IMG/VR virus record: IMGVR_UViG_3300000116_000041
Coordinates: 9,543 to 44,713 of that record
From: a virus
DNA: 35,171 nt
Direction: 5' to 3' (one strand)
Made by a program: the position numbers and the translations under genes. Of this stretch, positions 3,569 to 20,284 are shown piece after piece. The number at the start of each line of letters is the position of its first letter. The first letter of the stretch is position 1. The notes under the pieces were generated by a model that was given only the letters and a program-made list of their open reading frames with translations, searched no databases and was not told the DNA's origin.

Positions 3569-5143
3569 ATGGAATTTAATCAACCAAGCCAAATTGTCAA
3601 AAGTTTAAACTTTGGCAACGACGCTAAAAGTAAAATAATCGAGGGTGTAGAGAAACTTAACAATGCAGTTAAGTCTACCCTCGGTGCTTCTGGTAAATGT
3701 GTAATTTACGAGGATGCACTTGGAAAACCGGTGATAACAAAAGACGGTGTAACCGTTGCGGAAAGCGTAGTCTTATATGATCCGGTTGAGAATATTGGAG
3801 CAACCTTAATAAAGGAAGCTGCCAAGAACACAGTGAAGGAAGCAGGTGATGGTACTACAACAGCTACCGTCCTTGCTCACTCACTTCTAAATGTCGCCAA
3901 CGATACTGAATATAAAGACGCATCGATAAGAGATATTAAAGAAGGCATTAAATCTGGCATGAATAAGGTGATAGAATACTTAGACAGTAATGCAATAAAG
4001 GTAGATGATAAGCTTTTAGAGCAAGTTGCCTCAATATCCTGTAACAACGATGTTGAACTTGGTAAGCATATATCAGATGCTTATAAGAAAGTAGGTACAG
4101 ATGGTGTTGTTTTAATGGAACAGTCTTTAACTGGACAAACATATATAGATGTAGTAGACGGTGTGCAAATACATTGCCCACTTAAATCTAAGTATCTTAT
4201 AACAGATAAAGACAAAGGTGTAGCTGAATTAGATAATCCTTATATATTGATTTCTTCTACAGCAATACCTAACGTTAGAAAAATACAAACAGTGTTAGAG
4301 CACTGTATAAAACAAAATAGATCTTTATTAATCATTGGAGAGCTAGAACAACAACCTAAAGCTGCGTTATTAGCTAATAAGGTTAAAGGTAATATAAAGG
4401 TTAACTTTATTGATCTACCTGGTTTTGGACCTACAAAAGAAGATACAGTAGCTGATTTAGCTGTAGTAACTGGAGCAAAAGTAATAAATGAAGAACTTGG
4501 TGATGATTTTGATTTAATAGAACCTGATTGTTTAGGTGAAGCTGTTAAAGTCATAACAAATGATAAGCATACTGTTTTTACAGTAGATAAGACAGGTTCT
4601 GATTTAAAAGAAAGAATAGCTCAAGTTAAGAGGTTAATAAAAAAAGAGGATAAAAATCCTTATATAAGAAAGAAGCTAGAACAAAGACTAGCTATATTAG
4701 CAGGTAGTGTAGGTGTTATATATGTAGGCGCTGATTCTGAAGTAGAGTATAAAGAAAAGAAAGATAGAGTTGAAGACGCTGTATACGCTACAAAAGCTGC
4801 TTTACAAGAAGGTATAGTGCCAGGTGGAGGTGTTGCTTTATTAAATGCAGCACTTAATATAGAAGAACATGGAGTTGGTGAAAAGATACTAACTAAAGCT
4901 ATAATAGCACCTTTCTGTACAATACTAGATAACGCTGGTTTAGAAAAAGTTAATCCAGAGAAAATAGGTTATGGTATAGATGTTGTAACTGGTAAAGAAG
5001 TAGATATGATAAAAGCTGGAATTATTGATCCGGTTTTGGTAACAAAATCGGCGCTGCGAAATGCAGTATCAGTAGTTTCTACTATAATCTCAGCTGATTG
5101 TGTAATTAATAACATAAGAGTACTACCAGATGAAAGCAATTAA
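3569..5143 (+). CDS. groEL: Phage-encoded GroEL-type chaperonin (Hsp60), 524 aa
   Basis: The protein would form the ATP-driven folding chamber in the host cytoplasm, together with the GroES-like product encoded next to it. Group I chaperonin signatures are clear: VITKDGVTVA around Asp59 (equivalent of E. coli Asp52), the ATP loop GDGTTTATVLA at about 93-103 with Asp94 (equivalent of Asp87), and RVEDAVYATKAALQEGIVPG with Asp403 (equivalent of Asp398) followed by GGG at 419-421. All three residues needed for ATP hydrolysis are kept. The protein is about 20 residues shorter than E. coli GroEL and lacks the C-terminal Gly-Gly-Met tail, ending ...RVLPDESN. The last 14 bases overlap the next gene. 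The 5' part has a higher G+C content than the middle. It probably folds phage capsid or other large virion proteins. Confidence 0.95.
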   Translation: MEFNQPSQIVKSLNFGNDAKSKIIEGVEKLNNAVKSTLGASGKCVIYEDALGKPVITKDGVTVAESVVLYDPVENIGATLIKEAAKNTVKEAGDGTTTATVLAHSLLNVANDTEYKDASIRDIKEGIKSGMNKVIEYLDSNAIKVDDKLLEQVASISCNNDVELGKHISDAYKKVGTDGVVLMEQSLTGQTYIDVVDGVQIHCPLKSKYLITDKDKGVAELDNPYILISSTAIPNVRKIQTVLEHCIKQNRSLLIIGELEQQPKAALLANKVKGNIKVNFIDLPGFGPTKEDTVADLAVVTGAKVINEELGDDFDLIEPDCLGEAVKVITNDKHTVFTVDKTGSDLKERIAQVKRLIKKEDKNPYIRKKLEQRLAILAGSVGVIYVGADSEVEYKEKKDRVEDAVYATKAALQEGIVPGGGVALLNAALNIEEHGVGEKILTKAIIAPFCTILDNAGLEKVNPEKIGYGIDVVTGKEVDMIKAGIIDPVLVTKSALRNAVSVVSTIISADCVINNIRVLPDESN

Positions 5144-5387
5144 CTTCTACCTAGTAATAGAGAAAATAAAAGAAAAACCTAAAGATAACGGTGGATTTGT
5201 TTTAACGGAAACGCAAAACGAAGACATTAGGTATTTAAAAGGTCGAGTGATTAGTGTTGGAGATCAAGTAAACGGTATTATCGAAGGTGATATTGTTCAT
5301 TACGATAAACACGCTGGTCACGGAATAGAATTCGATAAAAAGTACTACTTCGTTATAAAGCACGCGGATGTAGTAATTATCGAGTAG
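5130..5387 (+). CDS. groES: Phage-encoded GroES-type co-chaperonin, 85 aa
   Basis: GroES caps the chaperonin ring and binds it through a mobile loop. The product starts MKAINFYLVIEKIKEKPKD and continues NGGFVLTETQ, in which FVL (residues 23-25) matches the hydrophobic tripeptide (IVL in E. coli GroES) that contacts GroEL. The segment RYLKGRVISVGD corresponds to the conserved 'GxVxAVG' strand, and GDIVHYDK to the 'GDxVxF' strand. It is about 12 residues shorter than E. coli GroES. The gene begins inside the end of groEL, giving the order groEL-groES, the reverse of bacterial operons. The overlap implies coupled translation and a dedicated chaperonin pair. Confidence 0.85.
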   Translation: MKAINFYLVIEKIKEKPKDNGGFVLTETQNEDIRYLKGRVISVGDQVNGIIEGDIVHYDKHAGHGIEFDKKYYFVIKHADVVIIE

Positions 5388-7385: not shown

Positions 7386-8273
7386 ATGCCTAGAATTAAG
7401 AATATAGATAGAGATTTTGTCATACATGACAATGACAAGGTTGTAGGATCTGACGCAATTAATAATGGAGCAACTAGAAACTATACAATAGGATCTATTG
7501 CTGCACATTTTGTAGCAACAAACGCAACAGGATCTTCAACGAGTTTAGCTTGGTTACTACGTGATACCGCTGATGAAAAAGGTGAGTTTCACATGAGTGA
7601 CAATGCTAGCTGGTCAAATACTGTTACTATAACCGTAAGTGAGTACGTTCACAATAATATTACTGACGATCATACAAACGCTATACAACTGTTAAAAAAT
7701 AGAGATATAGTAATAGTAGAAGCCGGTGATAAAAACGTTTACGCTGTTTATGATTGTCAAGTTTTAACTGATAATACTCCTGCTGCTGGTTTTTTAACTA
7801 TGAATTTAGTTTTAAAACAATCTGCCGGTGCTCCTACAGAAGGTTTGGTCTATATATTTGATTCGATGCCTACGGACAAGACTTTTACTGATACCGTAAC
7901 AATACAAAAAGATTTAAAAAGAACCATTACAACAGTTGTTGGATCTGGTACTACCCCAAAAAATCACGAGTGTGATTTAAATAAAAATGATAACTTTCTA
8001 ATTAATGCCCATAACGGAACAAATAGTATTGACATAAAAGTCAATAGTAATAGTGATGTTGGGCAAACTGGAAATATATTGATACAAAACCCATCAAGCG
8101 TAGGGTCTTTAGCCTTTAATGCTTTGCCAAGTTACATTAAAACCCCATTTGGAGCCACAGTAAACTTTGACCTAACAGCTAATAGAATTGCTGTTATTTC
8201 CTTCATTGTATTAGAATACGATGCTGGGGGAAACCACAAAGTGCTTATTAACTATATAGGTGACTTCTCATAA
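7386..8273 (+). CDS. Putative tail or fibre structural protein, 295 aa
   Basis: The product starts MPRIKNIDRDFVIHDNDKVV and continues GSDAINNGATRNYTIGSIAA. In my recollection this kind of opening ('D.VVG.D....TKNYTI..IA') is common in fibre or tail-associated proteins of marine phages. The rest is beta-rich and Asn/Thr-rich, with no catalytic motif, and ends in a strand pattern (HKVLINYIGDFS) like phage fibre C-terminal domains. The gene lies just before the giant repeat protein, so both may be virion fibre components. Confidence 0.55.
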   Translation: MPRIKNIDRDFVIHDNDKVVGSDAINNGATRNYTIGSIAAHFVATNATGSSTSLAWLLRDTADEKGEFHMSDNASWSNTVTITVSEYVHNNITDDHTNAIQLLKNRDIVIVEAGDKNVYAVYDCQVLTDNTPAAGFLTMNLVLKQSAGAPTEGLVYIFDSMPTDKTFTDTVTIQKDLKRTITTVVGSGTTPKNHECDLNKNDNFLINAHNGTNSIDIKVNSNSDVGQTGNILIQNPSSVGSLAFNALPSYIKTPFGATVNFDLTANRIAVISFIVLEYDAGGNHKVLINYIGDFS

Positions 8274-8284
8274 AACACTAAGAA

Positions 8285-11200
8285 ATGGCAAAATGGCTAG
8301 GATTTTTCAAAAAGGTTATTTGGAATACAAATACCTCGACATCCACTAGTACTACTAGAGGCACGAATACTGTTTGGGCCACAAGCAAAAACACTACTAG
8401 CACATTTACCACAACTAAATCTACAACTACTCAGTTTGAAACAACCGTTTCAACAACTACAGAATTTAACACTTCAACTAGTACACAAACACAATTTAAC
8501 ACAAGTACTGCAACTCAAAGAGCTACATCTACAGAAGTAACAACTATTAAATCTACTAATACTATTTTTAATACTAGTACAACAACACAAACAGCATACA
8601 ATACTAGCACTTCAACAACAAGATCAACACAAACCACAATAACCACATCAAAAGCAACCGCAACGGTGGTTCAGACAACGAAAGCCACTAGTACAACGTT
8701 TAACACGTCTACCAACACAACCACAACGTTTAACACTTCAACTTCTACTACAAAATCAACTAACACTGTAGTTGAAACAACTAAAACAACTAGTACGTTA
8801 TATAACACCACAAAAAGTACTACAACCGTGTTTAATACCTCTACTAATACTACCACTGTATTTAACACTAGCACAGACACTGTAGTAACTACGTCAACAA
8901 CCGTTGAAACAAATAAGAACACTACTACAACGTTCAATACTTCTACATCTACAAATACTGAGTATACTACATCTTGGAACACGAGTAGAACAACTATATT
9001 TGTTACATCTAAAACAACAACAAGATCTACTAATACTATAGTTCAAACTAGTAGATCAACAACCACCGCTTTTAATACTAGCACATCTACTACAACAGTA
9101 GTCGAAACAAACAAAAATACTACAACAGAATTCAATACTAGTACAAGTACGAGCACGGAGTATACAACAACTGTCTCAACAACAAAATCTACTAGTACGG
9201 TAGTACAAACCACAAAAGCCACAGCTACGGCTTACAATACTACAAAATCAACCACAACTACTTTTAATACTAGTACTTTAACAACTGCGTCAACCACTAC
9301 GACAGTTTCTACAAGTAAAGCTACAACTACTGTAGTGCTTACTAGTAAAAGCACAGCTACAGTTTATAATACTACTACAACAACTCAAACTGCTTTTACA
9401 ACGACATGGAGTACGAATAAAAACACAACAACAACTTTTAACACTCAAACCTCAACTACAACAGAGTTTAATACCTCGACAGCTACAACCACTATTTTTA
9501 ATACCGCAACAACAACCACTGTAGAAACAACAAAAAACACCACAACGACATATGAAACAACAAAAGCCACCGCAACAGTAGTCGAGACAAACAAAAACAC
9601 AAGTACTGCTTTCAATACTCAAACAGCTACTTCTACTCAGTTTAATACGTCTACTACAACAACAACTACTTTTAACACGTCAACAAGCACAACGGTTGAA
9701 ACCACTAAATCTACTTCCACTGTTGTTGAAACTACTAAAAACACAGCTACAGTTGTTGAAACAAATAAAAACACTAGTACAGTATTTAATACTAGCACCA
9801 ACACTACAACAACGTTTAACACGTCAACCAATACACAAACAGCTTATAACACATCCACCAGTACAGTAGTACAAACAACCAAATCAACATCTACCGAAGT
9901 TGCTACATCAAAAGCAACATCTACAACAGTAGAGACAAATAAAAACACTAGCACGATATATAATACAACAACCGCTACTGTTACTATTTTTAATACATCT
10001 ACAAATACTACAACGATATTTAATACGTCTACAACTACTACAGTTGAAACGACTAAATCTACATCAACAGTAGTCGAAACAAATAAAGCCACTTCAACCA
10101 CAGTTCAAACATCAAAAGCCACATCAACAGATTACAATACACAGACCGCGACAACTACTGCTTTTAATACTAGCACAGCAACAAGTACTACTTTTAATAC
10201 AGCAACTACAACGACTATTGAAACAGACAAATCTACAGCAACTGTTGTGTCAACGTCAAAATCTACGGCTACTGTAGTTCAAACAACAAAAGCAACCACG
10301 ACTACCTTTAATACTTCTACAAATACAAGTACAGAGTTTGAAACTAACAAAAGTACCACAACTGTATTTAACACAAGTACTACAACTACTATACAAACTA
10401 CAAAAAGTACGTCAACTACGTTTAATACGTCTACAACAACATTAACGGTTTATAATACTAGTAGAAGTACTAATACAGTATACAATACGACTAAAGCAAC
10501 TACAACAACCTTTAATACATCAACTAATACAGTTGTTTCAACAACAAAAGCAACTTCTACTACAGTATCAACAAGTAGATCAACAAACACAGTAGTTCAA
10601 ACCAATAAAAGTACGAATACCATATATAATACCAGCACCGCAACAAGCACCACTTTTAACACCACTACCGCGACTTCCACGACATTTAATACAAGTACAA
10701 CAACTGAAGTTAGTACAAGTAAATCAACCGTAACTACTGTAGAAACAACAAGAGCCACAGCAACGGTGGTTCAGACTAGTAAGAGTACAAATACAGTTTA
10801 TAATACGTCAACTGCTACTAACACAGTGTATAACACTACAAAAGCAACAACTACGACGTTTAACACTAGTACGTCTACCACAGTATCAACAAGTAGATCA
10901 ACTTCTACTGTAGTGCAAACTACAAAAGCAACATCTACTGTAGTGCAAACAAGTAAGTCTAGCAACACTGTATATAATACCTCTACGGCAACTAATACGG
11001 TTTACAACACTACAAAAGCAACAACCACAGTATTTAATACATCGACTACAACAACTATATCGACAAGTAAATCAACAGCGACTGTAGTATCAACAAGCAA
11101 AGCAACATCTACTGTTGTGTCAACCAACAAGTCTACTAGCACCGTATACAATACAACTACTGCTACTAGCACAACCTTTAATACCACAAAGTCTACTAGC

Positions 11201-13288
11201 ACAACGTTTAACACTAGTACATCAACCACTGTGTCAACTAGCAAGTCTACGTCAACAGTAGTTAGCACAAGTAAATCAACTAGCACTGTTGTATCAACAA
11301 GTAAAGCTACTAGTACTACAGTATCAACAAGTAAAGCTACTAGTACAGTGTATAACACAAGTACTAATACAGTATATAATACAACAAAGCTAACTAATAC
11401 TGTTTTTAATACAACTACCGCTACGTCTACGGTATTTAACACCGCAACTACCACCACGTATAATACATCTACTAATACAACAACCACTTACAATACAGCT
11501 ACGTCTACAGTCGTGTCAACAAGTAAAACAACAAATACTATTGTATCTACATCAAGATCTACAGCTACAGTTGTAGCAACAAGTAGAAACACTAATACAG
11601 TTTATAATACGTCTACAAATACAGTTTTTAATACAACAAAGCTTACACAAACAGTATTCAACACAACCACTGCTACAACCACTACGTTCAACACTAGTAC
11701 TGCAACTACAACAACATTTAACACAACTGTTTCAACACAAAAATCAACACAAACCAACAGAGCAACACAAACAATATTTAGTACTACAACTCAGTTCAAT
11801 ACAACCACTAGTACAACTACAACATATAACACAAGTACAAACACTACAACCACATTCAATACAACTACTAGTACGGTTTTCAATACTTCAACCAATACAA
11901 CCACTACGTTTAACACGGCAACTACAACAACTTTTCTAACATCTACAACAGTTTCTACAAGTAAAAATACCACTACAACCTATAATACAAATAGAAGTAC
12001 TAACACCACGTACAACACTACAAAAGCTACAACTACAATTTTTAATACTTCTACAAACACTACGACAACGTTTAACACGACAACGACAACAGTAGTATCA
12101 ACCCAAAAACAAACAACAACAACATATAACACAACAACTAGGTTTTTAACAAGCACTACAGTTTCAACAAGCAAAAATACCACAGAACAAAGAAGCACTA
12201 CTACTGTTTATACCACAAGCACTGCCTATACAACTAGTAAAAACACTACAGAGGTAAGAAACACAGTAACACAATTTAACACCACAACAGCTTATACAAC
12301 AAGTAAAACTACTACAGAGTCAAGAAATACAACTACTGCGTATACTACTAACACAGTGTATAACACCAGCACTGCAACCACAACAACATTTGTTACTATT
12401 ACGGCTTATACAACAAGTACTGCATATAATACAAGTACAAACACTATAACCATATACAGTACAACAACAACGTTTAATACTGTTACAAGTAAAAACACTA
12501 CAGAGTCAAGAAGTACAACAACTGTTTACAATACCTCTACAAATACCACTGTGTCAACAAGTAGAACGACACACTACAACACTAGTAAAAATACAGTTAC
12601 TAATTACTCAACAACCACGGCGTATACAACAAGCACTGTATTTTCTACAACTACTACGTATACTACCAGCACCGCATATAATACTACAAGAAATACCACT
12701 ACTACGTTTAGCACAACCACTATTTATTCAACTTTAACGGCTTACAATACAAGCACCACAACAACGTTTACAACAGGTAGAAGCACCGTGGTTTCAACTT
12801 CAAAATCAACGCAAGAACAAAGAAACACGACTACATTATATACTACTAGCACAGCATTCAATACTAGTACAAGCACAACAACAACATTTACTACAGTAAC
12901 AACATTTAACACCACAACAGTTTTTAACGCGCAATTGCTTACTACGTTTAACACAACTAAAAACACAACCACAAACTTACCGTATAACACACTTACATTT
13001 AGAGTAACGGCTACATCAAAAACTACAAGCACAAAGTATAACACAAGTACCGCTACCACTACCACGACTACATACACCACGTTAACAACATTTAATACAA
13101 GCACTAACACACAAACCTCTAGAGCCACTACCACAATATATAACACAACAACACGATTCAATACAACAACCGTATTTAACACAAGCACTTTGACTTACTA
13201 CAACACAATCTTCAATACTAGCAGGAACACATCTACAGACGGTGATGAACCTTGTTTAAGAGGTTGCGAGGGTGGCAATAGACCTTAA
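8285..13288 (+). CDS. Giant Thr/Ser/Asn decapeptide-repeat protein A, 1667 aa
   Basis: After a short hydrophobic/basic start (MAKWLGFFKKVIW) nearly the whole protein is a repeat of about ten residues. The commonest form is FNTSTNTTTT, alternating with variants such as VETTKSTSTV, VSTSKATSTV and YNTTKATTTT. Position 1 is F, Y, V or I, position 2 N, E, S or Q, position 3 Thr, position 5 Thr, Lys or Arg, and T-x-T usually follows. The regular hydrophobic position suggests a long beta-structured rod or fibre. It ends with a different, cysteine-containing tail (EPCLRGCEGGNRP). In the last 1.1 kb, repeats carrying ESR, EQR or EVR appear. There is no signal peptide and no enzyme motif. It may be a fibre or capsid-surface adhesin; the function is inferred only from composition and neighbours. 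Confidence 0.8.
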   Translation: MAKWLGFFKKVIWNTNTSTSTSTTRGTNTVWATSKNTTSTFTTTKSTTTQFETTVSTTTEFNTSTSTQTQFNTSTATQRATSTEVTTIKSTNTIFNTSTTTQTAYNTSTSTTRSTQTTITTSKATATVVQTTKATSTTFNTSTNTTTTFNTSTSTTKSTNTVVETTKTTSTLYNTTKSTTTVFNTSTNTTTVFNTSTDTVVTTSTTVETNKNTTTTFNTSTSTNTEYTTSWNTSRTTIFVTSKTTTRSTNTIVQTSRSTTTAFNTSTSTTTVVETNKNTTTEFNTSTSTSTEYTTTVSTTKSTSTVVQTTKATATAYNTTKSTTTTFNTSTLTTASTTTTVSTSKATTTVVLTSKSTATVYNTTTTTQTAFTTTWSTNKNTTTTFNTQTSTTTEFNTSTATTTIFNTATTTTVETTKNTTTTYETTKATATVVETNKNTSTAFNTQTATSTQFNTSTTTTTTFNTSTSTTVETTKSTSTVVETTKNTATVVETNKNTSTVFNTSTNTTTTFNTSTNTQTAYNTSTSTVVQTTKSTSTEVATSKATSTTVETNKNTSTIYNTTTATVTIFNTSTNTTTIFNTSTTTTVETTKSTSTVVETNKATSTTVQTSKATSTDYNTQTATTTAFNTSTATSTTFNTATTTTIETDKSTATVVSTSKSTATVVQTTKATTTTFNTSTNTSTEFETNKSTTTVFNTSTTTTIQTTKSTSTTFNTSTTTLTVYNTSRSTNTVYNTTKATTTTFNTSTNTVVSTTKATSTTVSTSRSTNTVVQTNKSTNTIYNTSTATSTTFNTTTATSTTFNTSTTTEVSTSKSTVTTVETTRATATVVQTSKSTNTVYNTSTATNTVYNTTKATTTTFNTSTSTTVSTSRSTSTVVQTTKATSTVVQTSKSSNTVYNTSTATNTVYNTTKATTTVFNTSTTTTISTSKSTATVVSTSKATSTVVSTNKSTSTVYNTTTATSTTFNTTKSTSTTFNTSTSTTVSTSKSTSTVVSTSKSTSTVVSTSKATSTTVSTSKATSTVYNTSTNTVYNTTKLTNTVFNTTTATSTVFNTATTTTYNTSTNTTTTYNTATSTVVSTSKTTNTIVSTSRSTATVVATSRNTNTVYNTSTNTVFNTTKLTQTVFNTTTATTTTFNTSTATTTTFNTTVSTQKSTQTNRATQTIFSTTTQFNTTTSTTTTYNTSTNTTTTFNTTTSTVFNTSTNTTTTFNTATTTTFLTSTTVSTSKNTTTTYNTNRSTNTTYNTTKATTTIFNTSTNTTTTFNTTTTTVVSTQKQTTTTYNTTTRFLTSTTVSTSKNTTEQRSTTTVYTTSTAYTTSKNTTEVRNTVTQFNTTTAYTTSKTTTESRNTTTAYTTNTVYNTSTATTTTFVTITAYTTSTAYNTSTNTITIYSTTTTFNTVTSKNTTESRSTTTVYNTSTNTTVSTSRTTHYNTSKNTVTNYSTTTAYTTSTVFSTTTTYTTSTAYNTTRNTTTTFSTTTIYSTLTAYNTSTTTTFTTGRSTVVSTSKSTQEQRNTTTLYTTSTAFNTSTSTTTTFTTVTTFNTTTVFNAQLLTTFNTTKNTTTNLPYNTLTFRVTATSKTTSTKYNTSTATTTTTTYTTLTTFNTSTNTQTSRATTTIYNTTTRFNTTTVFNTSTLTYYNTIFNTSRNTSTDGDEPCLRGCEGGNRP
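8330..13230 (+). repeat. Protein-level tandem repeat array A (about 30-bp period)
   Basis: About 160 decapeptide units would fill this span. The codons vary strongly between units (for example TTTAACACTAGT, TTTAATACGTCT, TTCAATACTAGC), so the period is clear in protein but blurred in DNA. The coding strand is nearly free of G. Confidence 0.8.
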
Positions 13289-13299
13289 AATTAATAACA

Positions 13300-14337
13300 A
13301 TGGCATATCATTCACATAGAGATCCTTACTTAGCGGCTGACTTAACATTCACAAATGATAAGATTACATGGGTGCACGATGGCGAAACCTTAGAGGTTAT
13401 GATGTCGTGGGAAAAACCTATTATGGCTAAAATGGCAGAGCTTACTGTTTCTGAAGGTGATAAAGTTTTAGAGTGTGGTTTTGGTATGGGTATACTGTCT
13501 GATGAAATACAAAAAAGAAACCCAGGCCATCACACTATTGTTGAATCTCACCCGCAGGTTATTGTAAAAGCAAGAGCTTGGGCTGTTGGTAAATCTAACG
13601 TGAAAATTATTGAGGGTGATTGGATAGATTTAAAAGACGTACCTGGTAGGTTTAACGCTATATTAATGGACACTTATTGCGATGGTGATTTACATCGTAC
13701 GTTTAACTGGTTTTGTAGAAATAAAGGGCATCATAATTGCAAGGTTAGCTGGTGGAATTTTAGCGGAGGAACAACAAGTGCCTTTATGAAACTTAACTGG
13801 GAAGACGTTGAGTTTACAGAGGTAACAGGTCTTGACGCGCCAGAAAATAGCTATTACAATAGAAATAACTATTACGTTCCAGTAAAAACTTTACCACGTA
13901 CTCCAGCTACATATGGTGTTTTATTATCCTCAAATATTAGTATATCTAATACAGAAACTATGCACATTAGAAAAGTGTATGGAGATACGGTATTATTAGT
14001 ATGTTCTGATCCTAGTAATCCTAATTTAGAAATTCAAGATGTTTCTGGAAAGAGCGTTATGTTTAAATGCAAAGGTGTGTATAGCATAAATGACGGACTA
14101 TTAGTAATGACAGGTGGAAACAATATGATTGTAAAGAGAGGTGGAACTTGGGTAGATAAAAAAGCAAACGAACTAGTTGTTGGTGACATGCTTTACAAAT
14201 CTGATAACACAGAGGTTGAAATAACTAAAATAGAGTTTGATAGTTCAGATACAGTATACGATATGTTTAAAGTAAATATTGATAATAATTATTTTGTTAA
14301 CAATATTCTAATAAGAAAAGGAGAAGATCATGCCTAA
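13300..14337 (+). CDS. GAMT-like methyltransferase fused to a degenerate Hint-like domain, 345 aa
   Basis: The N-terminal half (about 1-150) resembles guanidinoacetate N-methyltransferase/arginine N-methyltransferase (RmtA-type) enzymes: EVMMSWEKPIM at 32-42, the SAM-binding loop VLECGFGMGI at 56-65, TIVESHPQVI at 79-88, and ILMDTY at 121-126, where Asp124 matches the catalytic 'DTYP' region of GAMT. The C-terminal part (about 225-338) looks like the second half of a Hint (hedgehog/intein) domain: WVDKKANELVVGDML, then VYDMFKVNIDNNYFVNNILI. Residues needed for Hint self-splicing appear lost: the 'TxxH' position reads TGGN and the terminal His-Asn is replaced by IRKGEDHA. The gene sits between the two giant repeat proteins and overlaps the second by eight bases, so it may methylate their side chains. 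That role is inference. Confidence 0.7.
   Translation: MAYHSHRDPYLAADLTFTNDKITWVHDGETLEVMMSWEKPIMAKMAELTVSEGDKVLECGFGMGILSDEIQKRNPGHHTIVESHPQVIVKARAWAVGKSNVKIIEGDWIDLKDVPGRFNAILMDTYCDGDLHRTFNWFCRNKGHHNCKVSWWNFSGGTTSAFMKLNWEDVEFTEVTGLDAPENSYYNRNNYYVPVKTLPRTPATYGVLLSSNISISNTETMHIRKVYGDTVLLVCSDPSNPNLEIQDVSGKSVMFKCKGVYSINDGLLVMTGGNNMIVKRGGTWVDKKANELVVGDMLYKSDNTEVEITKIEFDSSDTVYDMFKVNIDNNYFVNNILIRKGEDHA
14319..14323 (+). promoter_or_regulatory. Shine-Dalgarno-like AGGAG before repeat protein B
   Basis: AGGAG stands six bases before the ATG at 14330, inside the end of the methyltransferase/Hint gene. Other genes of the window lack such a sequence, so this start is unusual. It could help reinitiation across the eight-base overlap, or it may be chance. 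Confidence 0.35.
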
Positions 14338-17300
14338 TACTACTACCACATTTGCTACATCTAAAACTACTAAGCACTCTACTAGCCTTGGTGCTACGTT
14401 GCGAAATACACAAACAACTCGAACCACTCAAGAATCACGCAGTACAACAACCACATTTAATACCTCTACATCGTTCAGTACTTCTAGAAACACTACAGAG
14501 TCAAGAAGTACGAGTACTACTACCGTGGTTGGAACATCAAAAAACACTACAACAAATTACACCACAACAACCATATATTCAACATCTACAAGTACCATAC
14601 ATACTTTTTCTACAACTTACAACACAAGTACACAAACAAATAGTGTTGTATCAAGATCTACGTTAAAAACAAGAAATACAGCAACCACTAGATCAACAAC
14701 TACAACTTGGGCAACTAGTAGGAACACATCAGAGCAAAGAAATACAACTACAACATATAACACCACGACAGTATATAATACAGCAACTAGTACATTCTAT
14801 ACAACATCGAGAAGTACAGTTATAATTACTTCAAAAAATACTTTAGAACAACGAAGTACAAGTACAAATAGAAATACTACAACTACATTTAATACTAGTA
14901 CTACTACCACGGAACAAAGAAGTACAACAACTAGTAGAAACACTATTGAACAAAGATCTACTGTAACTCAGAGAAACACAAGTACAGTATTTAACACTAC
15001 AACAACCACGGTTTACAATACTAGTACTTCAACAGTTGTTCAGACTAGTAAGTCTACAACAACAACTTATACTACTAGTACAGCTTTTACAACCGCTACG
15101 TCAAGATCAACACTTACCTCTAGATTGACCAGTACTACTGTTGCAACAAGTAAAAATACTATAGAGCAAAGAACTACGTCAACTTCAAGATCTACTAATG
15201 AAACTGTATCAACTAATAAAAATACTACAGAACAAAGAAGTACGACTACTACATATTCAACTACTACTGTATATAATACCAGTACACTTACTAATACTTT
15301 TAGAGCAACACAAACAACTTATACTACTAGTACTGTATATAACACAAGTACATCTACTGTTGAAAGTAGAAGTACAACAACAACGTATACTACCAGTACT
15401 GTTTTTAATACCAGCACAAATACATTAACTGAAAGATCTACACAAGAAGAAAGAACTACAGAAACAATATACAACACATCAACATTAACGAAATGGGCAA
15501 CAACTAGAAGCACATCCACTGTTGTTTCAACAACAAGATCAACAACAACTACATATAATACAGCTCGAAGTACTAATACTGTATTTAACACTACAAAGTC
15601 TACAACAACAGTATACAACACTAGTACTAATACTTTAACTAGTAGAACAACAACAATATCTACATCAAGAGCAACTTCTACAACCGTTTCTACAAGCAGA
15701 AACACAACGGTATCGACAAGTAGAGCTACATCTACAGTTGTTCAAACAGAAAAAGGTACAACAACTACATTTAACACGACAAAGTCTACGTTAACAAATA
15801 GATCTACCACGACTTATTTCTCTACAACAACTACGTTTAATACTTCTACAGCAACAACAAGATCAACTAATACTGTTGTAGAAACAACTAGAGCTACAAA
15901 CACGCAATACAATACAGTCACAGCTACTACAACTGAGTTTACTACTAATAGAACTACTGAGTTTAATACAACAACAGCTACTCAAACAAATTTCAATACT
16001 AGTACAAACACAACTACAACGTTTAATACAACAACGGCAACAACTACAACGTTTAATACTGCTACAGTTACAGTTGTTTCGACAACAAAAGCTACAGCTA
16101 CAGTTGTATCAACGAATAGAACAACCACTGTGTCAACTAGCAAGAATACTAACACGGCATATAATACTCAGACTGCAACAACAACTCAATATAATACTAA
16201 TAAAACAACAGAGTTTAATACTAGTACTAACACTACAACCATTTTCAACACGTCGACTAACACTACGACAACATTTAACACGTCTACTAATACTACGACT
16301 ACTTACAATACAGCTACTAATACTACAACTACTTATAATACATCAACTAATACTACTGTATCAACTAGCAAAAATACTACGACTACTTTTGAAACTAGCA
16401 AAAATACCAACACAGTTGTTGAAACAAATAAAAATACAAATACTGTATACAATACCGCTACAAATACCACTACAACTTTTAATACGTCAACCAATACTAC
16501 TACCACGTTTAATACGGCAACCGTAACAGTTGTTTCAACAAGTAAAAGTACAACTACTACTTTTGAAACTAGTAAGAATACAAATACAATAGTACAGACA
16601 AATAAGAGTACAACCACCGTATATAACACAGCTACAAACACTGTAACTACTTTTAATACTTCAACTAATACAACTACGACTTTTAATACAAGTACAACTA
16701 CAACGTTTGAAACAACTAAAAGCACAACTACAACATTTGAGACTAGTAAAAATACTAACACTGTAGTACTTACTAATAAAAATACTACAACAACGTATAA
16801 CACCTCGACAAATACTGTTACAACATTTAATACAAGCACTAACACAACTACTACTTTTAACACTAGCACGTCAACAACTGTCGCAACTAGTAAGAACACA
16901 AATACTGTCGTGTCAACTAGTAAAAATACCAACACTGTTGTATCAACCAATAAGAACACCAATACTATTTATAATACGCAAACAGCAACCACTACAACTT
17001 TCAACACTAGTACTAATACTACAACTACTTTCAATACTAGTACATCTACTACTGTTGAAACTACAAAGAGTACTACGACTACTTATAATACAAACAGAAG
17101 TACAAACACAGTATACAATACAACAAAAAATACAACTACTACTTGGAGCACTAACAAGAATACAACAACAACATTCAACACGGCTACAACAACAGAGGTT
17201 AGTACATCAAAATCTACTAACACGATTTATACTACATCGAAATTAACAGCAACTGTAGTTGAAACAACTAAGTCAACAACTACGACTTTTAATACAAGTA

Positions 17301-19315
17301 CTAATACAACGACTGTTTATAATACTAGTACTAATACAACCACCACGTTTAACACAGCTACTTCAACAGTAGTTTCGACATCTAAAAATACAAACACAGT
17401 AGTAGCAACAAGTAAAAATACAAACACAGTAGTTGTAACGAGTAAATCTACAACTACAATATTTAATACTAGCACGAATACTACTACTACATTTAACACT
17501 AGTACTAATACGACTACTACATTTAATACTTCAACAACTACTACTGTACAAACAAGTAAGGCAACAGCAACTGTAGTACAAACACAAAGCGGTAGAAGTA
17601 CACATATTCAAACTAATAAATCTACTAATACGGTTTATAACACTAGCACAAACACTACTACTTTGTTTAATACTAGTACCAATACTGTTACCACTTTTAA
17701 TACTGCTACAACAACAACGGTAGAAACGGTAGTATCAACAGCAACTGTAGTTCAAACAAACAAAGCTACTAGTACTGAAGTTAGCACGTCAAAATCAACT
17801 AATACTGTATTTAACACGTCTACTAATACTGTTACTACTTTTAACACTGCTACCAATACAACCACTACATTTAATACTAGTACGTCTACTGAATACAATA
17901 CTTCAACCGCTACGACAACTGTTGTTGCTACGTCACGAAATACAAATACTGTTGTTGCAACTACTAAGTCAACGAACACAGTGTATAATACTAGTACAAA
18001 TACTACAACTACATTTAATACTTCTACTAGCACCACAACAACATTTAACACCGCTACAACTACTACTGTACAAACGAGTAAATCAACAAATACCATTGTA
18101 GCTACTACAAAAGCAACAAATACCATTGTACAAACAACAAAAGGAACTTCTACCGTGTTTAACACTGCTACTATTACTACAATAGGCACAAGCACTACAT
18201 TTAATACAACTAAAAACACAAGTACTGAGTTTAACACTAGCACTAACACAACCACTACATTTAATACTGCTACATCTACTACAACAGAGTTTGGTACAGC
18301 TTGGGCAACAACAAAAGCTACAACAACTACATTTAACACGTCAACCAATACCACAACAACATTTAACACAAGTACTAACACAGTAACTACTTTTAACACA
18401 AGCACAATTACTAGTAAAGCTACAAATACAGAGGTTCAGACAAGTAAATCAACAAGTACTGTATTTAACACAAGCACGGCAACAACTACTGAGGTAGCAA
18501 CAAGCAAAGCCACAAGCACAGTGTTTAACACAACAACTAGCACGAGTACAGAGTATACAACTAATTTTGAAACTAGTAGAACTACTATATTTAATACAAG
18601 CACAACAACCATTAAAGCGACAACTACTGAGATCCAAACTACTAAGTCTACTAATACTGTATTCAACACAAGTACAAACACTCAAACTACTTTTACAACA
18701 GAGTACGAGACAAATGTAACTACTAGTACTGAGGTTCAAACTAATAAAGCTACTAACACACAATTTAATACAAGTACCGACACTACAACAACTTTCAACA
18801 CAACTACAGCAACCACTACTACTTTTAATACAGTTTGGGCTACAACAAAAGCTACAGCTACAATTTATAACACTAGTACAAATACTACAACAACGTTTAA
18901 CACAACCACAAATACTACAACAGAGTTTAATACTAGTACTGCAACAAGTACTGTATTCACAACTGCTTACGAAACTGTTGTTTCAACAAGCACTGAGGTT
19001 CAAACAAACAAAGCAACAAATACAGAGTTTAACACAAGTACTAATACACTAACGGTATTTATTACAGTAGTACAAACACAAAAAGCAACAACAACTTTAT
19101 ATGTAACTAGTAAAGCAACTAATACAATTTATAACACTAGTACATCAACAACAACTACTCAAGTAATAAGTACCACTACGACTACTACGTTTAATACGAG
19201 CACTACCACTACAACTACATTCACAACAGTAACAGTTATGGAAACACAAACGTCTTGGTACAGCACGTATAAAAAAGACTACTCTACAGAGCGATTTGAT
19301 ATTAACTATCAGTAA
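14330..19315 (+). CDS. Giant Thr/Ser/Asn decapeptide-repeat protein B, 1661 aa
   Basis: The protein begins MPNTTTTFATSKTTKHSTSL and consists of the same decapeptide repeat as protein A almost from the first residue, without the hydrophobic start of A. The first 1.1 kb is rich in units with ESR, EQR or ERS. The remainder is dominated by FNTSTNTTTT and VETTK/VSTSK/VQTNK units. It closes with a non-repeat tail (METQTSWYSTYKKDYSTERF...). The near-equal length to protein A (1661 against 1667 aa) and shared repeat type indicate paralogy, or two parts of one former gene. It is followed by a GT-B-like gene. It is most likely a fibre or surface protein of the virion. Confidence 0.8.
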   Translation: MPNTTTTFATSKTTKHSTSLGATLRNTQTTRTTQESRSTTTTFNTSTSFSTSRNTTESRSTSTTTVVGTSKNTTTNYTTTTIYSTSTSTIHTFSTTYNTSTQTNSVVSRSTLKTRNTATTRSTTTTWATSRNTSEQRNTTTTYNTTTVYNTATSTFYTTSRSTVIITSKNTLEQRSTSTNRNTTTTFNTSTTTTEQRSTTTSRNTIEQRSTVTQRNTSTVFNTTTTTVYNTSTSTVVQTSKSTTTTYTTSTAFTTATSRSTLTSRLTSTTVATSKNTIEQRTTSTSRSTNETVSTNKNTTEQRSTTTTYSTTTVYNTSTLTNTFRATQTTYTTSTVYNTSTSTVESRSTTTTYTTSTVFNTSTNTLTERSTQEERTTETIYNTSTLTKWATTRSTSTVVSTTRSTTTTYNTARSTNTVFNTTKSTTTVYNTSTNTLTSRTTTISTSRATSTTVSTSRNTTVSTSRATSTVVQTEKGTTTTFNTTKSTLTNRSTTTYFSTTTTFNTSTATTRSTNTVVETTRATNTQYNTVTATTTEFTTNRTTEFNTTTATQTNFNTSTNTTTTFNTTTATTTTFNTATVTVVSTTKATATVVSTNRTTTVSTSKNTNTAYNTQTATTTQYNTNKTTEFNTSTNTTTIFNTSTNTTTTFNTSTNTTTTYNTATNTTTTYNTSTNTTVSTSKNTTTTFETSKNTNTVVETNKNTNTVYNTATNTTTTFNTSTNTTTTFNTATVTVVSTSKSTTTTFETSKNTNTIVQTNKSTTTVYNTATNTVTTFNTSTNTTTTFNTSTTTTFETTKSTTTTFETSKNTNTVVLTNKNTTTTYNTSTNTVTTFNTSTNTTTTFNTSTSTTVATSKNTNTVVSTSKNTNTVVSTNKNTNTIYNTQTATTTTFNTSTNTTTTFNTSTSTTVETTKSTTTTYNTNRSTNTVYNTTKNTTTTWSTNKNTTTTFNTATTTEVSTSKSTNTIYTTSKLTATVVETTKSTTTTFNTSTNTTTVYNTSTNTTTTFNTATSTVVSTSKNTNTVVATSKNTNTVVVTSKSTTTIFNTSTNTTTTFNTSTNTTTTFNTSTTTTVQTSKATATVVQTQSGRSTHIQTNKSTNTVYNTSTNTTTLFNTSTNTVTTFNTATTTTVETVVSTATVVQTNKATSTEVSTSKSTNTVFNTSTNTVTTFNTATNTTTTFNTSTSTEYNTSTATTTVVATSRNTNTVVATTKSTNTVYNTSTNTTTTFNTSTSTTTTFNTATTTTVQTSKSTNTIVATTKATNTIVQTTKGTSTVFNTATITTIGTSTTFNTTKNTSTEFNTSTNTTTTFNTATSTTTEFGTAWATTKATTTTFNTSTNTTTTFNTSTNTVTTFNTSTITSKATNTEVQTSKSTSTVFNTSTATTTEVATSKATSTVFNTTTSTSTEYTTNFETSRTTIFNTSTTTIKATTTEIQTTKSTNTVFNTSTNTQTTFTTEYETNVTTSTEVQTNKATNTQFNTSTDTTTTFNTTTATTTTFNTVWATTKATATIYNTSTNTTTTFNTTTNTTTEFNTSTATSTVFTTAYETVVSTSTEVQTNKATNTEFNTSTNTLTVFITVVQTQKATTTLYVTSKATNTIYNTSTSTTTTQVISTTTTTTFNTSTTTTTTFTTVTVMETQTSWYSTYKKDYSTERFDINYQ
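14340..19235 (+). repeat. Protein-level tandem repeat array B (about 30-bp period)
   Basis: This is the counterpart of array A, again with many synonymous codon choices and a G-poor coding strand. Units of the form NT[ST] recur about every ten residues. Local near-identical DNA runs occur (for example around 16210-16350 and 17460-17530), so some recent unit duplication is possible. Confidence 0.8.
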
Positions 19316-19322
19316 AAATGTA

Positions 19323-19350
19323 GAAAGCGGTAAAAATATGTAATAATATA
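19323..19350 (+). promoter_or_regulatory. Putative late promoter, copy 1
   Basis: This 28-bp stretch matches 20287-20314 at about 20 positions, with AAAGCG at the left and ATAATATA at the right. It lies 29 bases before the ATG of the glycosyltransferase-like gene. The ATAATATA block also resembles the right half of the minus-strand motif. Confidence 0.4.
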
Positions 19351-19378
19351 TATACTAATAACAATTAAATTTAATAAT

Positions 19379-20284
19379 ATGGAAATGTTTAATAGAAAGG
19401 AACTAGATAAAAGAATAGGACCTTTAAAAAAGAATAAAAAATTATATGATCTTGAAGCAGTAGAAGGTTATGTGATTAGAAAAGCAAGTGAAAGAGGTAT
19501 AGAGTATAGCTACGATGTTCTAGCTGAAGAAATGCCCTACTTTAAAACATTAGCTTATACAGAGTTTGCTACTTGTTTTTACATACAACCGCTAAACGTT
19601 AAGCTTAGAAATGAGCAAATGTTAGATGCTTATGCTGACAATGTTAAAGACGTGAAAGACTGGGCTTCTTATTTTGTTAGTAACATAACAAACAAGCATG
19701 CTAATAAGTATCAAAATAGAAAAGAAAAGTTTGATAAAAACCCAGCTAAAGATTTTTTAGTTGTATTGCCTGGTTCAAATAAAGTTAAAACTAACGTGTG
19801 TTTAAATAGAATGAAAAACATATCTAACTCACACGGTAACAATATAAACTTTAAACCACATCCAATAACAACACATCAAATTGTTGGTGAGCTAAAAGAT
19901 TTCTTTGGAGAAGACAATATACTACCAAGAGATGTTGACATGTATTACTATATGCAGAAAGCGAAACACGTATACACTACTCATATTAGTGAAAGCGCTA
20001 TCTACGCTGCAATGTTAGGTAAAACAATATCGCCAATTGATGTTTGGAATAATATACAGCAAGGATCTTTTTATTGTATAAACAATCATTTGTTTACTAA
20101 CCAACATCATATTAAGGAGTGGGTGAACCAAGCGTTTTCTAGTCCTAAATCAGGTATTATTAACCCTGCAGTAGATGATAATTGGAAAGAAAAAGTAGAT
20201 CAATACTTTGATTATATATGTAAAAAAAGAGAGGTATATAAAAATTGGTTTATAGATAGTAGAAAACCAAAAGAGAAAAAATAG
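19379..20284 (+). CDS. GT-B-type glycosyltransferase-like protein, 301 aa
   Basis: The C-terminal half carries two features of GT-B polysaccharide/glycerophosphate transferase-type enzymes: the KPHP motif at 159-162 (NINFKPHPITTHQ) and, after DVDMYYYMQKAKHVYT, a donor-site-like segment THISESAIYAAMLGKTIS at about 201-218, matching the known pattern 'S...EA...GK.' near the sugar-nucleotide site. The strand FLVVLPGSN (126-134) would start the C-terminal Rossmann-like domain. The N-terminal 120 residues are not recognised and are shorter than a full GT-B domain. No membrane segment is seen. It follows directly after repeat protein B, so the abundant Thr/Ser/Asn side chains there are plausible acceptors. 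Alternative targets are phage DNA or host envelope glycans. Confidence 0.55.
   Translation: MEMFNRKELDKRIGPLKKNKKLYDLEAVEGYVIRKASERGIEYSYDVLAEEMPYFKTLAYTEFATCFYIQPLNVKLRNEQMLDAYADNVKDVKDWASYFVSNITNKHANKYQNRKEKFDKNPAKDFLVVLPGSNKVKTNVCLNRMKNISNSHGNNINFKPHPITTHQIVGELKDFFGEDNILPRDVDMYYYMQKAKHVYTTHISESAIYAAMLGKTISPIDVWNNIQQGSFYCINNHLFTNQHHIKEWVNQAFSSPKSGIINPAVDDNWKEKVDQYFDYICKKREVYKNWFIDSRKPKEKK

Follow-up and report, generated by a model that had tools for sequence, protein, structure and literature searches.

A threonine-repeat protein and a KpsC-like transferase encoded side by side in diverse phages suggest a dedicated fibre-glycosylation module

Flagellin is glycosylated with nonulosonic acids in systems that use Maf or FlmG. 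Among phages, mycobacteriophage virion proteins carry glycans, according to Freeman et al. 2023 as cited in PMC12619734. On the enzyme side, sialyltransferases and retaining Kdo transferases have a CMP-binding motif, (K/R)XHP, in common (PMC12887879). In KpsC, the surroundings of the Kdo site include K133 and Y134, which lie 26 residues before D160, the nucleophile of the QXXXD motif (PMC10148158). Here we describe a phage locus in which two giant Thr-repeat proteins are paired with a putative transferase resembling these enzymes. That such a pairing occurs in very different phages suggests that phages have a dedicated and so far unrecognised means of coating an attachment fibre with sugars.

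The window, the whole stretch of 35,171 nucleotides that was analysed, is part of a 44.7-kb uncultured viral record. Among its genes, those for the terminase, the portal and the major virion proteins have matches in PHROG families for head and packaging. With Flavobacterium elemo phages and a Manatee Spring podovirus the terminase shares about 45-63% identity, and Cellulophaga phages are also among its matches. A host in the Flavobacteriales is suggested by a relative of the transferase, whose contig was binned with a MAG of this order. The structural operon starts with phage genes for GroEL (524 aa) and GroES (85 aa; window 3569-5387), which the Manatee Spring and elemo relatives carry too. 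A first-pass annotation had placed four consecutive genes in the window, REP1, a methyltransferase-Hint gene, REP2 and a GT-like gene (hereafter GT), and all four were confirmed at the positions of Table 1. Their neighbours are a holin-like gene, a fibre-type gene and the terminase.

Table 1. Features of the repeat/GT locus in the window
Feature	Description	Position	Strand	Evidence
Fibre-type protein	295 aa, directly 5' of REP1	7386..8273	+	ORF, relatives, domain HMM
REP1	Thr-repeat protein, 1667 aa, ~107 decapeptide units, C-terminus CLRGC	8285..13288	+	
Methyltransferase	GAMT-like, with C-terminal Hint-like remnant, 345 aa; optional module member	13300..14337	+	
REP2	Thr-repeat protein, 1661 aa, starts MPNTTTT, ~104 decapeptide units, 58-aa super-repeat	14330..19315	+	
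GT	GT-B-type transferase (KpsC/sialyltransferase-like), 301 aa	19379..20284	+	PHROG 26179 E=9e-33, 30602

REP1 contains 748 Thr, 215 Ser and 161 Asn residues, and REP2 contains 741, 193 and 190, respectively. Thr makes up 45% of each protein, and the earlier description of two giant Thr-repeat proteins in ten-residue units proved correct, their lengths being 1667 and 1661 aa. The units counted in Table 1 (107 in REP1, 104 in REP2) are those that fit the simple pattern Phi-x-T-x-x-x-T-x-T-x; a spacing of 10 is the commonest, followed by 8 and 6. The commonest unit reads Phi-N-T-S-T-N-T-T-T-T or Phi-x-T-x-K-x-T-x-T-V, with Thr recurring at positions 3, 7 and 9 and a mix of S, T, N and A at the adjoining positions. 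In the super-repeat (174 nt), three neutral F-N-T-S units are followed by three V-x-T-x-K units (10, 10 and 8 residues). The invariant Thr positions use all four Thr codons, which shows that Thr is conserved at the protein level and that the units are not fresh DNA copies. Moreover, even lags are over-represented among Thr-Thr distances (z = 39.0 and 38.5 versus residue shuffles), an alternation that looks beta-strand-like. For a 232-aa repeat segment, AF2 gave a model that is too weak to interpret (pLDDT 48, pTM 0.36) and has one strand of ~7 residues per decamer. Pfam and PHROGs searches of the repeat proteins returned nothing useful; the N-terminus of REP1 carries a short signature common to its relatives. 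Pro is nearly absent. Since only 3 Pro occur in REP1 and 1 in REP2, the proteins are Thr/Ser-rich and not Pro/Thr/Ser-rich, and the label "mucin-like" given to them earlier is doubtful.

The repeat and GT genes nearly always occur together, in both directions of search and across unrelated phages. With the GT as bait in viral contigs, 54 close relatives were found, and a Thr-repeat ORF lies upstream in 41 of the 42 that could be evaluated. A profile search gave 312 GT relatives, 80 of which were kept, and the same arrangement is seen in 75 of 76 evaluable cases. Combined, a Thr-repeat gene was scored directly upstream of GT in 116 of 118 evaluable relatives, a count that, like those of the reverse test, does not consist of independent cases because many contigs are near-identical. 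Both misses have a technical explanation: in one (L008), the ORF of GT is frame-split into two parts and begins at base 48, at the contig edge; in the other (L082), separate inspection showed the repeat at a distance of 30 nt. Caulobacter phage Cr30 (L072) was scored via its neighbouring fibre gene, and its short repeat protein, gp254, was identified by eye. For comparison, Thr-rich ORFs number only 9 among the 731 that follow GT on the same strand.

The reverse test relied on a degenerate DNA pattern for the decapeptide alone, GT not being used; this pattern replaced a tblastn scan with REP2, which found no relative. Among the 80 loci listed, 77 contain a Thr-rich ORF. GT lies within the locus in 51 of these 77 and elsewhere in the record for 18 of 22 further records. 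Of the loci left with a repeat and no GT, two are chance matches, one is a real candidate exception and the others are fragments. The chance matches, a TPTPTP stretch (L180) and a T-run (L188), were discarded. The only candidate true exception (L182, 1-5181) encodes a 1726-aa Thr-repeat protein followed by structural genes, and a KpsC-like GT was not found in its 23-kb record, which is a fragment. In the Manatee Spring and elemo phages, which are without the GT, Thr repeats are absent from the genes inspected. Among bacteria, a search of 84,980 species gave one match to the GT, on a Flavobacteriales MAG contig carrying the same phage genes; judged by this search, bacteria do not commonly carry the GT. 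Co-occurrence had been anticipated for all four genes. It was borne out for the repeat and the GT, and not for the methyltransferase as an obligate partner, its slot being refilled or empty in relatives.

The pair is also present in isolated phages. By tblastn, the GT is found in the Caulobacter phages Lullwater, Quill, DCM, BL198, BL199, ERS and Cr30, in KVP40-like Vibrio phages and in Stenotrophomonas phage DLP_6. In Lullwater, Quill, DCM and Cr30, a short Thr-repeat gene lies directly upstream of GT and is itself preceded by a tail-fibre-type gene; in Lullwater, the repeat protein is gp41 and the GT is gp42. In KVP40, D484, F86, D479 and QD01, a Thr-repeat protein with a structural-looking N-terminus (KVP40.0254, PHROG 30374) is encoded just upstream of GT. 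In the public records of Lullwater, Quill, DCM, Cr30 and the KVP40-like phages, the pair is annotated "hypothetical". Most Thr repeats of isolated phages have a tetrapeptide period (lags 4, 8 and 12 enriched) instead of a period of ten. Since the pair is kept at a GT identity of 21-26% in the unrelated Caulobacter Autographiviridae, Cr30 and KVP40-like Vibrio phages, inheritance of one operon in one lineage would be insufficient to account for it. The exception is DLP_6, where no Thr-repeat protein was found beside GT and where GT adjoins a fibre with Ig-like and Hint-like parts. This unannotated Ig-like ORF of >1000 aa, with a Hint-like C-terminus, spans the terminal repeats (L070:7860-10490 with L066:1-1640). 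In KVP40, the pair is followed by a QueC-like gene, a nicotinate/nicotinamide phosphoribosyltransferase-type gene and two radical-SAM genes (KVP40.0257-0261; L063:6803-11085), which suggests further chemistry on the same product.

An alignment of 33 GT sequences shows that R34, D46, K110-Y111, L130-x-G132-x-N134, K159-x-H161-P162-x-T164, G177 and E205 are kept. The (K/R)XHP motif corresponds to K159-P-H161-P162 in the window GT, with K, H and P invariant in all 33 sequences, in agreement with the KPHP-type glycosyltransferase annotated behind REP2. N134 is preceded, at a distance of 23 residues, by an invariant Lys-Tyr; the correspondence of this pair with the Lys-Tyr of KpsC, like the other GT-KpsC correspondences, is based on sequence spacing and not on residue-level superposition. 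The aligned stretch at the nucleophile site reads L-[PC]-G-[ST]-N and lacks the QXXXD motif, Asn (N134) standing there in every aligned member. Because Asp is replaced by Asn throughout, GT cannot use the KpsC mechanism in unaltered form, and a loss of activity is conceivable.

A PDB sequence search with the GT profile and the Quill GT gave no meaningful match; the fold assignment consequently relies on AF2 modelling (pLDDT 72.8) and structural alignment. The four best alignments are to KpsC (Z 7.4-7.8) and the next two to WbbB, ranks 1-6 having Z values of 7.1-7.8; the tool itself advises caution for values below 8. KrkA follows WbbB, and sialyl- and polysialyltransferases rank lower still. 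Foldseek alone retrieved generic GT-B matches with low TM-scores (about 0.26-0.34). In addition, PF05159 (Capsule_synth) matches the Quill GT relative (E = 6e-4). The GT may thus be described as a CMP-acidic-sugar GT-B by resemblance and not by membership: it was not placed in GT99, GT107 or GT140, because the defining QXXXD motif is absent. Of the donors earlier proposed for a GT-B enzyme at this locus, a sugar is favoured by these CMP-sugar-type features, and glycerophosphate appears less likely.

The surroundings of the repeat genes point to a fibre. The C-terminal ~95 aa of the 295-aa upstream protein, which has no Pfam or PHROG match, form a domain that is also present in genes located 0-13 nt before the Thr-repeat genes of relatives. 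With an HMM, this domain is detected with E-values down to 1e-35 directly upstream of the repeat in 19 of 99 loci that have upstream DNA; as a universal part of the module it was rejected on this count. Many REP1 relatives end in an S74-like domain with an S-[DQ]-R-x-x-K pattern, although their matches to PF13884 (Peptidase_S74; E = 0.004-0.007, 17-18 bits) fall below the cutoff of 22. A Ser...Lys pattern is typical of self-cleaving fibre chaperones. Such an end is absent from REP1 of the window. In the Caulobacter phages, the gene upstream of the Thr-repeat gene is a T7-type tail-fibre gene. Because a fibre-like gene lies 5' of REP1 and S74-like ends occur on many relatives, the gene context points to the repeat protein being a component of a tail fibre or adhesin, in line with the fibre role first suggested for it, and speaks against a free mucin.

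We favour, with modest confidence, a two-part fibre-glycosylation module in which Thr residues of a tail-fibre protein are O-glycosylated by a dedicated transferase. The Thr-repeat protein, encoded right after the fibre gene, would be an elongated attachment or tail-fibre component, and its strictly spaced Thr residues would form an acceptor array. The phage-specific GT-B would bind a CMP-activated acidic sugar of the Kdo, sialic, pseudaminic or legionaminic type, drawn from the Gram-negative host, and would O-glycosylate the repeat Thr in the cytoplasm, before assembly. GAMT-like or other methyltransferases would probably decorate the glycan or fibre further, as would GT8-like, GT29-like or radical-SAM enzymes in the phages that have them; the glycosylated fibre would then be assembled on the tail. 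We infer GT catalysis, Thr as acceptor, the donor, the virion location and a role in attachment or shielding.

Two other readings of the pair have to be weighed. The repeats could form an unmodified beta-fibre with a Thr ladder, GT being a non-catalytic assembly chaperone with Asn for Asp. This is unlikely, though not negligibly so: the even-lag Thr parity extends over the whole protein, the weak AF2 model has its short strand in each decamer, REP1 relatives have S74-like chaperone ends and the catalytic Asp is replaced. However, the CMP-binding KXHP, K-Y and D46 are all invariant, which would not be required of a pure chaperone; extra GTs and methyltransferases gather in the same cassette; and the confidence of the repeat model is only pLDDT 48. 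It is unlikely, to a similar degree, that GT modifies a host surface glycan (LPS, capsule or O-antigen) for superinfection exclusion or progeny release, next to the repeat gene only as another late gene. KpsC/WbbB-type enzymes do normally act on LPS or capsule (PMC10148158, PMC12887879), and DLP_6 has a GT and no repeat, but the near-obligate two-way coupling and the adjacency of GT and repeat in unrelated phages argue against a host target, and no host-directed partner is equally constant.

In the proposed fibre-glycosylation module, the methyltransferase appears to be an accessory. In the window, METHYLTRANSFERASE is a GAMT relative plus a Hint-like remnant. The methyltransferase domain is GAMT-like (about residues 33-208; 3orh, E = 6e-17 in a PDB profile search, 39-208). 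The Hint-like part (about residues 251-340) has a weak intein match (9hth, E = 0.003) and has lost the His of its T-x-x-H block (TGGNN), which is kept in four full-length relatives (TGNHP). The methyltransferase half of the annotated fusion therefore stands, and the Hint half does not as an intact domain. At least five close relatives resemble the window in having a GAMT-like enzyme encoded between their two repeat genes. In other relatives, an unrelated methyltransferase of about 185 aa (profile match to a class I methyltransferase, E = 0.0014; PHROG methyltransferase, E = 1e-4) occupies this slot between REP1 and REP2, and in L041 the slot is empty. C-x-R-G-C ends most REP1 proteins that have a GAMT-type methyltransferase behind them (window 13231-13288, L007, L011, L018, L019, L022, L212), and the S74-like domain ends many of those accompanied by the other methyltransferase. 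GAMT-like methyltransferases also adjoin fibre genes that have no Thr repeats; these enzymes, in a 634-kb phage (L062:11980-12564) and a viral contig (L004:1327-1926), are without the Hint part. The Arg content of the repeats is 2.5% in the GAMT group, the lowest value, versus 3.5% and 4.5%. Because the methyltransferase is optional and Arg is rarer, not richer, beside the GAMT-like enzyme, the methylation of repeat guanidino groups proposed in the first-pass annotation is unsupported; of its view that the enzymes modify the repeats, the link between repeat and GT is retained, through their two-way co-occurrence, and the methyltransferase as a repeat modifier is not. A methylated and glycosylated mucin-like fibre with a GAMT/RmtA-like enzyme acting on those groups is thus very improbable, real as the GAMT homology and the position between the repeat genes are, given the refilled or empty slot, the low Arg, the same enzyme beside fibres without Thr repeats and the near absence of Pro.

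Other enzymes accompany the pair. In L127 (1317-6876), a Thr-repeat gene is followed by genes for a methyltransferase, a GT29-like enzyme, a methyltransferase, a GT8-like enzyme and the KpsC-like GT, as expected of a compact glycan-building cassette. A methyltransferase gene lies beside the repeat/GT pair in L185, and a radical-SAM gene in L142 (4823-5863). From this gene content, we infer that the extra enzymes decorate the glycan or fibre and are interchangeable, the KpsC-like GT being the constant step. A broader formulation, plausible but tentative, is that of a widespread phage glycosylation system, including KVP40, Cr30 and Lullwater, in which a divergent CMP-ulosonate transferase would load a Thr-repeat scaffold from host CMP-Kdo or nonulosonic acid, giving a densely acidic fibre with added phage sugars and methyl groups.

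If the proposal is true, many marine and freshwater phages, as well as some culturable ones with genes listed as hypothetical, encode both a dedicated sugar acceptor protein and the enzyme that loads it. The giant Thr-repeat genes of viral metagenomes would then be explained, PHROGs 26179, 30602 and 30374 would be assigned a function, and laboratory Caulobacter would allow a direct test of virion glycosylation in Gram-negative phages. It would also define a new branch of CMP-sugar transferases acting on protein Thr, possibly with a changed mechanism (Asn for Asp). Literature searches on Thr-rich phage repeats, the KVP40 glycosyltransferase, Caulobacter phage fibres and phage O-glycosylation, which covered the main text of openly accessible papers, gave no description of such a system, in which a Thr-repeat protein serves as dedicated acceptor for an obligate transferase.

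Compared with known systems, the proposed module has parts in common with several of them. Mycobacteriophage virions also carry glycans on phage proteins; however, the acceptors named in the source cited above are the C-termini of capsid and tail-tube subunits, whereas the acceptor proposed here is a dedicated protein that contains hundreds of Thr and belongs to phages of Gram-negative hosts. KpsC (GT107), WbbB (GT99) and KrkA (GT140) give the best structural alignments of the phage GT and share with it (K/R)XHP and a Lys-Tyr at a similar distance before the nucleophile site. Unlike these enzymes, the phage GT has LPGSN and not QXXXD, its identity to them is about 7-17% in structural alignment, and its gene is tied to a fibre-like protein and not to capsule or LPS. 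(K/R)XHP is also common to the phage GT and sialyltransferases (PMC12887879), a likeness to CMP-sialic/pseudaminic acid transferases. Tail fibres and spikes that bear S74 chaperones (PF13884) resemble the many REP1 relatives with S74-like ends and the S-[DQ]-R-x-x-K pattern, but the Pfam score of these relatives is sub-threshold, and REP1 of the window ends in CLRGC. Finally, as a dedicated enzyme that modifies Ser/Thr of a surface filament, the phage GT would have a functional analogue in the Maf and FlmG systems of flagellin; the phage acceptor, in contrast, is a low-complexity Thr repeat, and the two are likened by function, not by sequence.
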